The translations under genes and the position numbers were made by a program. Positions 10,271 through 19,085 of a stretch of 24,391 nucleotides of DNA are shown here, piece by piece. Position 1 is the first letter of the stretch, and every line of letters starts with the position of its first letter. The notes beneath the pieces were generated by a model, which did not search any database, was not told where the DNA came from, and saw only the letters and a list, made by a program, of their open reading frames with translations. The DNA comes from a virus: positions 1-24,391 of IMG/VR virus record IMGVR_UViG_3300025874_000092; one strand, given 5' to 3'.

Positions 10271-10558
10271 ATGAACATTCTAGAAGAAGCAAACAAAATT
10301 ATCAATGAAAGATCTGAAGAGAAGGAGCGAATGTACGGTCCTTTCTCTGAAGGTATGGAGAGAGCAGCATCAATAGTATCTGCATCTACAGGTAAAGATA
10401 TAACCGCATCTGATATGTATATATGCCTTGTAGCTTTAAAGCTCTCTAGGCACTCTTATAATTACAAAGAAGATAACTTATTAGATGCAGTAGCATATAT
10501 TGGAGCGTTAAACAACTATGAACTAAAACAAAAAAACAAAGATGAAAGCACTGATTAA
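10271..10558 (+). CDS. DUF6378-like small phage protein
   Basis: 95 residues. ILEEANKIINERSEEKERMY, G-P-F near 24-26, then the helix pair YICLVALKLSRHSYNYKEDN (56-75) and LLDAVAYIGALNNYE (76-90) match the helical phage family I know as DUF6378 ('yGp..., k-l-a-R, h-k-x-D-N-x-x-D-x-x-G-Y'). The function is unknown. The helix pattern with D-N-x-x-D resembles MazG-like all-alpha pyrophosphatases, and it heads a nucleotide-metabolism operon. It overlaps the next gene by 17 bases. Confidence 0.65.
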   Translation: MNILEEANKIINERSEEKERMYGPFSEGMERAASIVSASTGKDITASDMYICLVALKLSRHSYNYKEDNLLDAVAYIGALNNYELKQKNKDESTD

Positions 10559-11519
10559 CATTTACTCAAACATTCAATGTACTCAAAAGAACCACTCTGG
10601 TTTAGAGGCTCATTACCTATCTACTCATCACGATTGCGATTTGATTGGCAAGTCTGGTAGAACAAATAAAGACTTTGATAAATACGTAGATATTTTTAGC
10701 ATTGAAGATCTTACTAAATACGATGGTATCATAATTCAACTTAGTCAACCTAACTTTTTTGGAGGAGTAATTGGAGATGATACTATTGAAAAGGTAAAGA
10801 AAGTTGCAGCTTATTTAGGTAGCACTAATATATTATGTACCGATCCTAAAATCAAACCAACTAATCCTGCTAAGATGATCAATGATAGAGCTGAAGGTAC
10901 TTTTAGCGATGATCAAGTAGCTGCATGGGATCTAATCCTACAGAAATCTACTTACGTATTTCCTGGAAAAGACTTAGCTAAGTTTTGGAGCGATGATAAA
11001 TACAAAGACGTAGAGGTATCTTATTTTAATTTCTTTCCTAAGATCTTTGGTCACTTGCTAAACCCTGAAATTAGTGATAGACCTAAGTCACACGATGTAG
11101 TTTACTACGGTGATCGAAGAGGTTCTTATAGAGAAAAGCAAGTAGAGAAATACATGCCACAAAAAGATACTTCTTTACTAATCGGATTTAAGACTACTAA
11201 AGTTGATGTACCATTTACTAAAAAGCTTAAGCATGACGAGTTAATGGATAAATTAGATCAATGTAAAGTTAGCTTAGTATTATGTGATGCTGAACATAGA
11301 GATAACGTGGTAACATTTAGACTATATGAGACTTTAGGTTCAAATTGTTTAGCTGCAATTCCAATTGAGTATGATCCCAATAAAGAAATTATTCAAGACC
11401 CTGAGTTACGTGAACTTTTATACGTAAGATCTAAAGACGATGTTAGAAACTTAGTAGGTAAATATAGTACTGAACTAATCAAGAAGCAACATGAAGAATT
11501 TAGAAGGCTTACAAGTTAA
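10542..11519 (+). CDS. Putative glycosyltransferase (GT-B-like), possibly DNA-base modifying
   Basis: 325 residues. The N-terminal half looks like a Rossmann domain (KYDGIIIQLSQPNF near 58-75, then a helix and STNILCTD). The C-terminal half has DVVYYGDRRGSYREKQ (near 185-200), SLVLCDAEHRDNVV and FRLYETLGSNCLAAIPIEYD (about 260-279). The R-x-x-E-T-L-G-x-x-C/A pattern (E263) resembles the nucleotide-sugar-binding segment of GT-B glycosyltransferases, including T4 alpha-glucosyltransferase. It is two genes upstream of a hydroxymethylase-like gene, so the acceptor could be 5-hydroxymethylated base in phage DNA. The fold match is by eye, and another sugar or nucleotide enzyme is possible. Confidence 0.45.
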   Translation: MKALINIYSNIQCTQKNHSGLEAHYLSTHHDCDLIGKSGRTNKDFDKYVDIFSIEDLTKYDGIIIQLSQPNFFGGVIGDDTIEKVKKVAAYLGSTNILCTDPKIKPTNPAKMINDRAEGTFSDDQVAAWDLILQKSTYVFPGKDLAKFWSDDKYKDVEVSYFNFFPKIFGHLLNPEISDRPKSHDVVYYGDRRGSYREKQVEKYMPQKDTSLLIGFKTTKVDVPFTKKLKHDELMDKLDQCKVSLVLCDAEHRDNVVTFRLYETLGSNCLAAIPIEYDPNKEIIQDPELRELLYVRSKDDVRNLVGKYSTELIKKQHEEFRRLTS

Positions 11520-18232: not shown

Positions 18233-18325
18233 ATGACAAACGTATACGCAATGATCCTAGTAGTTGTCGCAGTAGCAGCAGTTAATATCTACTATTCAAA
18301 ATATTTCTATGATCACGAGGAGTAA
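18233..18325 (+). CDS. Small single-pass membrane peptide
   Basis: 30 residues. Residues 6-18 are purely hydrophobic (AMILVVVAVAAVN), followed by an aromatic belt (IYYSKYFYD) and an acidic end. The A-rich leader AAACTAAATACC precedes the ATG. Its place between a terminator and the tRNA gives no clue to function. Short frame, so moderate confidence. Confidence 0.45.
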   Translation: MTNVYAMILVVVAVAAVNIYYSKYFYDHEE

Positions 18326-18334
18326 AGAAAGACA

Positions 18335-18445
18335 TGAAAGGTGGTGAAATTGGCAGACACGCCCAACTGTCTCTTGGGTGAAGACAAGAAATAAAGCATT
18401 AAGTTGCCTAATCCCTTCGTAGAGGTTCGAGTCCTCTCCTTTCAG
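18335..18445 (+). tRNA. Abnormal class II tRNA gene (Leu-like body, apparent GUC anticodon)
   Basis: Acceptor TGAAAGG (18335-18341) pairs fully with CCTTTCA (18438-18444), discriminator G at 18445, no encoded CCA. The D arm GTG-AAATTGGCAGA-CAC (18344-18360) is the tRNA-Leu type. CCCAA/TTGGG (18362-18366, 18374-18378) forms a perfect anticodon stem with loop CTGTCTC, hence anticodon GUC (Asp) and a pyrimidine at position 37. The T arm AGAGG-TTCGAGT-CCTCT is canonical. The variable region (18379-18420) is 42 bases, far above the usual class II size, with only TGAAG/CTTCG pairing at its ends. It is probably a degenerate or unusually processed tRNA-Leu, or a tRNA-like element. Confidence 0.7.
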
Positions 18446-18464
18446 CTATTGTTACAATAATGTA

Positions 18465-18484
18465 TATTCTCTATTTATAAATAT
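18465..18484 (+). promoter_or_regulatory. Candidate late promoter motif, copy 2
   Basis: TATTCTCTATTTATAAATAT differs at one position from 776-795. It lies directly before the first tail gene, and its last two bases are the AT of the ATG at 18483. Transcripts starting downstream would be leaderless, so either the start is further upstream or the motif acts in another way. The shared motif before the two structural operons is the main support. Confidence 0.42.
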
Positions 18485-19085
18485 GAAGCTTACAGTACCT
18501 ACAGATTTAAGTGAAATTACCTTAGGACAACTGCAAACCTTAAACGATATTGAGGAAGCAGAGTTAGATGCTATTGATAGACAAAAAGAAACTATCATAG
18601 CTTTGACAAAGGTTGACAGAGGGACACTTGATAGATTTAGGCTTAGTGACCTAAAGAATGTTTATGATAAGCTCTTATACCTAACTAAAAAGGATGAGAA
18701 GCTTGTGAAGTTTGTAGACATAAATAACACTAAGTATGGTTTTCATCCTAATCTATCGAATATCACTACTGGAGAGTTTGCTGACCTAGATACTTTGTGT
18801 CAAGATCTAAATAAAAACCTAGACAAAGTAATGGCTATTCTATATAGAGAAGTAACTATAGAAAAGTCAAATAAATATCAAGTAAAACCTTACGATGGTG
18901 ATTTAGATATTAGAGCAAAGTTGTTTAAAGAGAAGATGCCTGCTAATGTTGTTAATGGAGCTATTGTTTTTTTTTGGAATTTAGGAAGAGACTACTTGAA
19001 CAATTCTCTAATCTCTTCCAAGGAGGATCAGGAGACGTTAAAGAGCAACAGTTCTCAGAAAAGTGGGGATGGTACCAAATACTGA
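18483..19085 (+). CDS. Tail assembly chaperone, G-like zero-frame product
   Basis: 200 residues (MKLTVPTDLSEITLGQLQTL...). The opening 'v-P-x-x-L-s-E-I-T-L-G-q' and the helical body match the tail assembly chaperones of Bacteroidota siphophages. At codons 162-164 (GTT TTT TTT) ribosomes can slip back one base, which yields a 238-residue fusion to the frame at 18974-19198 (residues 1-164 plus 74). The zero-frame product continues for 36 residues of low-complexity polar sequence. The pair G and G-T guides tail tube polymerisation around the tape measure in lambda-like phages. It is the first gene after the late motif at 18465. Confidence 0.75.
   Translation: MKLTVPTDLSEITLGQLQTLNDIEEAELDAIDRQKETIIALTKVDRGTLDRFRLSDLKNVYDKLLYLTKKDEKLVKFVDINNTKYGFHPNLSNITTGEFADLDTLCQDLNKNLDKVMAILYREVTIEKSNKYQVKPYDGDLDIRAKLFKEKMPANVVNGAIVFFWNLGRDYLNNSLISSKEDQETLKSNSSQKSGDGTKY
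18968..19019 (+). other. Programmed -1 ribosomal frameshift signal
   Basis: T TTT TTT at 18968-18974 lies in the correct phase for tandem slippage (zero-frame codons 18969-18971 and 18972-18974), inside a run of nine T. After a nine-base spacer, GGAAGAGA (18984-18991) pairs perfectly with TCTCTTCC (19012-19019) around a 20-base loop. The -1 frame is open from here to 19198. All three parts of a classic signal are therefore present. Confidence 0.88.

Follow-up and report, generated by a model that had tools for sequence, protein, structure and literature searches.

A conserved family of class-II tRNA-like RNAs with aspartate-type identity marks in phages and Bacteroidota: candidate non-decoding partners of AspRS

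The analyzed window (the whole 24,391-nt stretch of the IMG/VR virus record IMGVR_UViG_3300025874_000092) contains an intact class-II tRNA-like gene with a complete cloverleaf, which is near certainly a member of a conserved tRNA-like family, under strong structural selection, found in phages and on the chromosomes of Bacteroidota. Our preferred reading of the window gene, with a rough probability of 0.45, is a non-decoding tRNA mimic, built on this phage-carried family, that would be bound or charged by the AspRS of the host. For the family at large, we tentatively propose tRNA-shaped RNAs located beside Lrp/AsnC regulators, which may be aspartylated or seized by AspRS and read no codon, constituting either a non-ribosomal aspartyl-tRNA system or a controller of AspRS, a proposal that we hold at somewhat short of even odds. 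The gene and its flanks are laid out as follows (all on the + strand):

18233..18325 (+): upstream 30-aa ORF MTNVYAMILVVVAVAAVNIYYSKYFYDHEE, its stop codon 9 nt 5' of the RNA gene; no match in a Pfam search
18335..18445 (+): class-II tRNA-like RNA gene, 111 nt, tRNA positions 1 to 73; supported by RF00005, the family model and near-identical copies
18335..18341 (+): acceptor stem 5' strand TGAAAGG, pairing with 18438-18444 (both halves read from the sequence); U1 and G2 conserved
18344..18360 (+): Leu-type D arm GTG ... CAC, stem halves 18344-18346 and 18358-18360 (read from the sequence), D-loop GG at 18352-18353
18362..18378 (+): anticodon stem-loop CCCAA-CTGTCTC-TTGGG, stem halves 18362-18366 and 18374-18378 (read from the sequence); all five stem pairs covary in the family
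18367-18373 (+): anticodon loop CTGTCTC, with GTC at 18369-18371 and T37 at 18372
18369..18373 (+): conserved loop motif G34-U35-C36-U37-C38, from loop-unconstrained scans
18379-18420 (+): variable region, 42 nt (read from the sequence)
18380..18383 (+): variable-arm stem 5' strand GAAG, from offset pairing and covariation
18384..18414 (+): variable-arm interior, AATAAA (18390-18395) and CTAATCC (18408-18414) flanking a short GC...GC apex
18415..18418 (+): variable-arm stem 3' strand CTTC, from offset pairing and covariation
18421..18437 (+): T arm AGAGG-TTCGAGT-CCTCT, from sequence and family covariation
18438..18446 (+): acceptor 3' strand CCTTTCA, followed by G73 and C74; CCA is not encoded
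18483..19085 (+): downstream ORF, 200 aa, phrog_32199 (unknown function), starting 37 nt past G73

All elements described by the initial annotation, including the GUC anticodon and T37, are present in the window, so that the observation itself is confirmed, and the interpretation given to it is partly supported. Its leucine-type body stands as far as the D arm and the geometry at the base of the variable arm are concerned and fails at the discriminator, G73, which is not Leu-like; this G73 and the 4-bp variable stem GAAG/CTTC had both been missed. The term "malformed" has to be dropped for an intact member of a conserved, covarying family with the same loop and discriminator in phages and hosts. 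That the stems pair and the sequence is not random is borne out by a score of 40.9 bits (E 4.9e-7, local cmscan) against RF00005, which is independent of the family model, and by 93.4 bits (E 1.6e-23) against the masked-loop family model R1, the latter partly by construction since a near-identical copy of the window gene is among the 33 model rows; given these two scores, the gene is not a chance occurrence. A tRNA fold is further evident from the covarying cloverleaf, the D-loop GG and the T-loop TTCRA. Default ARAGORN reported no tRNA in the window, Rfam at the gathering threshold gave no match across it, and no Rfam family other than tRNA exceeded its gathering score over the RNA; the folding energy of the gene alone (z -0.01) is uninformative. 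The gene sits within a series of forward-strand phage genes. Elsewhere in the window, positions 10542-11519 hold a beta-glucosyltransferase-like phage gene (phrog_7922; weak, below-cut-off match to Pfam T4-Gluco-transf), which suggests that the phage DNA may be glucosylated and so modified, and the product of positions 811-2340 has a lectin domain of the concanavalin A-like type (Laminin_G_3).

The family extends far beyond this window. The gene recurs at an equivalent place in two other contigs, each copy differing from the window by 2 bases in the variable-arm apex, and in one of these contigs the neighbor protein is only 72% identical to that of the window; phages with an 83-84% identical terminase have a 94-nt tRNA with GUC and a long variable arm elsewhere in the genome. 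A single degenerate pattern matched 69 viral contigs and, among GTDB genomes, at least 120 host loci in Pedobacter and other Bacteroidota (e.g., Solitalea and Chryseosolibacter), with one to several copies each. The phage copies represent at least 16 unrelated contig groups, and blastn with the copy of locus L090 located a member in the 636-kb megaphage record LR756504.1. These searches were pattern- and model-based and aimed at viruses and Bacteroidota; host prevalence is patchy, and the counts, taken from related sequences and not from independent events, are lower bounds (the R1 genome scans missed the known carriers G013, G039 and G055). Host copies are often arranged in tandem with mixed arm types (about 41 nt and about 73 nt) adjacent to each other, for instance at L152 (2323 and 2527), L154 (five copies between 3983 and 5600) and L213 (three copies). 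Five different copies compared by blastn with annotated phages gave either nothing or short partial matches, many of them in ordinary tRNA-Leu genes, and plasmids searched with one copy gave no match. ARAGORN found none of the family RNAs in 16 host loci and called some of the shorter phage copies as tRNA-Asp, a Rfam scan of four host loci had no match over the family RNAs, Rfam 15 holds no such family, and no description of it was found in the literature searched (open-licence papers only). As far as Rfam 15 and these papers allow to judge, the family is apparently uncatalogued because ARAGORN passes over it and Rfam lacks a dedicated model. Some other odd tRNA genes were encountered in the phage loci: three class-II-like genes with enlarged anticodon or variable regions at L089:8139-8277 (-), L057:4926-5044 (+) and L066:1723-1838 (+), which have no GUCUC loop and score lower with the family model (49-51 bits for L089 and L057), and a tRNA-like gene at L057:4462-4585 (+), which ARAGORN fits only with a 28-nt intron and which resembles a class-I body with a long extra segment.

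Selection on structure is seen in the covariation of 33 aligned representatives (anticodon loop masked): pairing holds in 98.2% of cells, 19/24 pairs change on both sides, and the two-sided changed cells number 125 vs. 28 in shuffles. The 7 + 5 pairs of the acceptor and T stems form in all representatives; acceptor pairs 1-7 always form in the family, with two-sided changes at 6/7. Most Sphingobacteriaceae copies (e.g., L140:5386) retain a mismatched U29-U41 within their anticodon stem (CCTCC/GGTGG).

The anticodon loop, in turn, is not maintained as a decoding loop. Loop bias was avoided in two ways, via the loop-masked covariance model and via a pattern that ends before the loop. In the 54 viral contigs matched by the latter, the loop is mainly YTGTCTC, and U33 is lost in 14/54 (A, C or G at 33), giving TGGTCTC, TAGTCTC, CGGTCTC, CAGTCTC and TCGTCTC; other variants of this set have A34 or C37, and host variants include G33 (L298), C37 (L294) and C34 (L297). 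In these scans, U35 and C36 persist, as do G34 and C38 with few exceptions (A34 in L322 and L333, C34 in L297; G38 or A38). Position 37 is a pyrimidine in 189/189 distinct genes, with U35 and C36 constant, as found by a detector that fixed TC at 35-36 and accepted only T or C at 37, and unconstrained scans agree. The combination of U33 with purine 37 expected of a decoding elongator is absent, since no copy, the window gene included, has purine 37; ordinary tRNAs of the same loci have U33 in 133/134 and purine 37 in 126/134 cases. An ordinary-looking second phage tRNA-Asp at L131:590-666 (-) has U37 as well (loop CTGTCTA). With position 33 free to change and 34-36 and 38 kept, codon reading is unlikely to be what selects this loop.

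The positions that are kept match the marks by which AspRS recognizes its tRNA. Bacterial Asp determinants are G73, G10, G34, U35, C36 and C38, with a minor contribution of G2-C71 (PMC9976931). The family has U35 and C36, nearly constant G34 and C38, an invariant G10, G73 with a following C in 167/167 distinct genes of our first set, and G2-C71 in 166/167, which at the level of sequence amounts to an Asp-like determinant set. It differs from tRNA-Asp in its class-II body with a long arm (19 to about 106 nt in place of a short class I variable region), in pyrimidine 37, in a dispensable U33, and in the terminal pair, which is U1-A72 in 158 and A1-U72 in 9 of the 167 genes; in bacterial tRNA-Asp, G1-C72 is strictly conserved and helps to position the 3' end (PMC9976931). 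Likeness to tRNA-Leu (class II, RF00005) is confined to the D arm, the 7/5 acceptor and T arm and the 1 + 2 unpaired bases flanking the variable-arm stem: the family lacks A73 and a Leu anticodon (G73 in 167/167, loop YNGTCTC), has pyrimidine 37, does not require U33 and reaches a variable arm of about 106 nt, and G73 is an antideterminant for LeuRS (PMC9976931). Bacterial Ser determinants include C72 and C11-G24 (PMC9976931), in place of which the family has A72 or U72 and U11-A24, even though the long arm and G73 are present.

Since the near-invariant positions are Asp determinants and the freely varying loop positions 32 and 33 are not, we infer that AspRS of the cell would bind, and probably aspartylate, this RNA. 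According to this preferred reading, the family resides on Bacteroidota chromosomes and has repeatedly been captured by phages; RNase P and RNase Z would free the RNA from its transcript, after which CCA would be added, and codon reading would be poor or absent because of Y37 and the dispensable U33. The RNA may then act as an AspRS-directed adaptor outside of decoding, as an aspartyl donor or as a competitor or sensor of AspRS, and it is the "tRNA mimic with another use" among the options raised by the initial annotation that the evidence favors. Of the particular uses named there, those as an attachment site or a primer gained no support from these analyses. Counting against this reading are the U-A or A-U pair at 1-72 instead of G1-C72, the few copies departing at 34 or 38, the retention of U33 in most copies (and in the window gene), the U37 of the ordinary-looking L131 tRNA-Asp, and the lack, among the genes inspected, of any partner enzyme found to use Asp from this RNA.

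A genuine GAC/GAU-decoding tRNA is unlikely, whether an additional tRNA-Asp built on a Leu body and carrying Asp, or a missense tRNA carrying Ser, as is possible for allo-tRNAs. The retention of U33 and GUC by most copies and the placement of several phage copies within tRNA clusters (L089, L094, L131 and L341) would suit it, and G73 together with the long arm could attract SerRS; however, the Ser determinants C72 and C11-G24 are absent, pyrimidine 37 runs throughout the family, and U33 is replaced in copies whose variable arms are so different that several independent losses are probable. Moreover, canonical tRNA-Asp (loop CTGTCAC) is present in 4/4 host genomes checked, and phage loci L089 and L131 have a further tRNA-Asp besides the family RNA; as canonical tRNA-Asp coexists with it, the family RNA is not the sole GUC tRNA of the cell.

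The genomic setting differs between hosts and phages. In 101/120 host loci among the matches listed, the RNA adjoins a divergent Lrp/AsnC gene about 157 nt apart, identified by Pfam (HTH_AsnC-type, AsnC_trans_reg); several of the other 19 loci end near the gene, leaving the neighbor out of view. A reverse search from the regulator found the RNA beside it in four Bacteroidota loci (L267-L270), all with YTGTCTC; of the six closest regulator homologs, two had no adjacent RNA. Promoter-like sites of the Bacteroidota type (TTTG ... TAnnTTTG), located about 50 nt 5' of the RNA gene, occur in 107/200 host upstream regions vs. 5.5 in shuffles, and hairpin-plus-T sequences lie 3' of some host copies (uncounted). 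Phage copies are without a promoter-like site and mostly lie between co-oriented genes. A small protein family (...VFHYN...WAAIPR..Y..YWS) repeatedly follows the RNA in one phage group (L323, L325, L327, L332 and other loci). The conserved Lrp/AsnC neighbor, the preservation of 34-38 while U33 drifts, and the structured arm domain that many copies have, with its invariant segments (TTGACC and GCTAAC-type), are also compatible with a regulatory RNA, tied in hosts to Lrp/AsnC, in which the GUCUC loop is a binding site for RNA or protein and the tRNA fold provides stability. We regard this alternative as improbable: GAGAC, the complement of GUCUC, is not in excess in the flanks (36 observed vs. 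62.8 expected), by which antisense pairing with nearby GAGAC was rejected; clustering of flanking ORFs from 99 loci revealed no gene common to the 16 phage contig groups; and a binding-site role would leave unexplained why the RNA has the Asp determinants along with G73 and G2-C71.

Repeated capture by unrelated phages and the display of a GUC loop on a non-standard body would also fit a phage counter-defense, in which the RNA is a decoy for an anticodon nuclease or another tRNA-targeting toxin that attacks tRNA-Asp-type loops. This appears distinctly doubtful, as hosts carry a chromosomal gene at a conserved place and no gene for a toxin or nuclease recurred next to the RNA in the loci.

The variable arm, described in the initial annotation as far too long and as a possible insertion or intron-like piece, is a trait of the family with a covarying stem of its own. 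Variable regions range from 19 nt to about 106 nt (the longest in L269), and the arm consists of a 4-bp stem and a variable apex; placed with 1 nt on its 5' side and 2 nt on its 3' side, the stem is paired in 97.8% of cells, vs. 85% at the next best offset. The window has a reduced form, GAAG ... AATAAAGC-[ATTAAGTT]-GCCTAATCC ... CTTC, and the closest unrelated copy, in phage locus L094, shares its arm flanks around a GAAA apex; given this copy and the range of the family, the 42 nt of the window is a normal arm. Host copies have internal-loop sequences related to the arm interior of the window, and many host (and some phage) copies have a structured arm domain whose helices covary and in which TTGACC- and GCTAAC-type segments are invariant. 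The alternative pairings CAACT/AGTTG and TGTCT/AGACA do exist as strings in the window and are not conserved, and both were rejected on this ground; in place of the former, L094 has a GAAA apex. In intron mode, ARAGORN relies on the CAACT/AGTTG pairing and assigns Asn(att) to the window and Asn(gtt) to near-identical copies, a switch caused by two apex base differences, which disfavors an intron. It is therefore next to untenable that the gene is a tRNA-Leu pseudogene in decay or a tRNA interrupted by an intron or some other insert: although only intron mode lets ARAGORN fit the window gene, the intron model assigns different anticodons to near-identical copies, virtually every copy has a stem within the variable arm itself, and covariation is family-wide, so that both the intron-containing tRNA and the pseudogene were rejected. 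The absence of conservation in relatives by which the initial annotation would have recognized a pseudogene was checked, and the family is conserved in phages and on host chromosomes.

Several known systems combine some of these traits. Allo-tRNAs share the long variable arm and an anticodon mismatched to the body, and GUC is among the commonest anticodons of their 8/4 type (PMC7609411). The family differs from them in its canonical 7/5 branch (8/4 or 9/3 acceptor/T branches were not found) and in its lack of Ser determinants C72 and C11-G24. The nematode nev-tRNAs are eukaryotic, have a Leu-type class-II body with a foreign anticodon and are charged with Leu; the family shares this type of body and a foreign anticodon, and the loops differ. 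Bacterial Y RNAs such as YrlA contain a tRNA-mimicking module within a longer RNA and do not serve decoding; unlike in YrlA, the family has a whole tRNA whose acceptor ends are free and whose extra domain is placed in the variable arm. The staphylococcal non-proteinogenic tRNA-Gly, a class I tRNA, is charged and diverted from translation to cell-wall bridges, and the family, with its class-II body, would by analogy resemble it as a charged tRNA diverted from translation.

Overall, culturable bacteria (many Pedobacter species and their relatives) have a conserved RNA gene that has apparently been overlooked. Its Lrp/AsnC neighbor, an amino-acid regulator, may point to a connection with amino-acid supply in hosts, and capture by both small phages and a 636-kb megaphage suggests an importance during infection. 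If charged but non-decoding, this RNA would be a new bacterial example of a tRNA withdrawn from protein synthesis.
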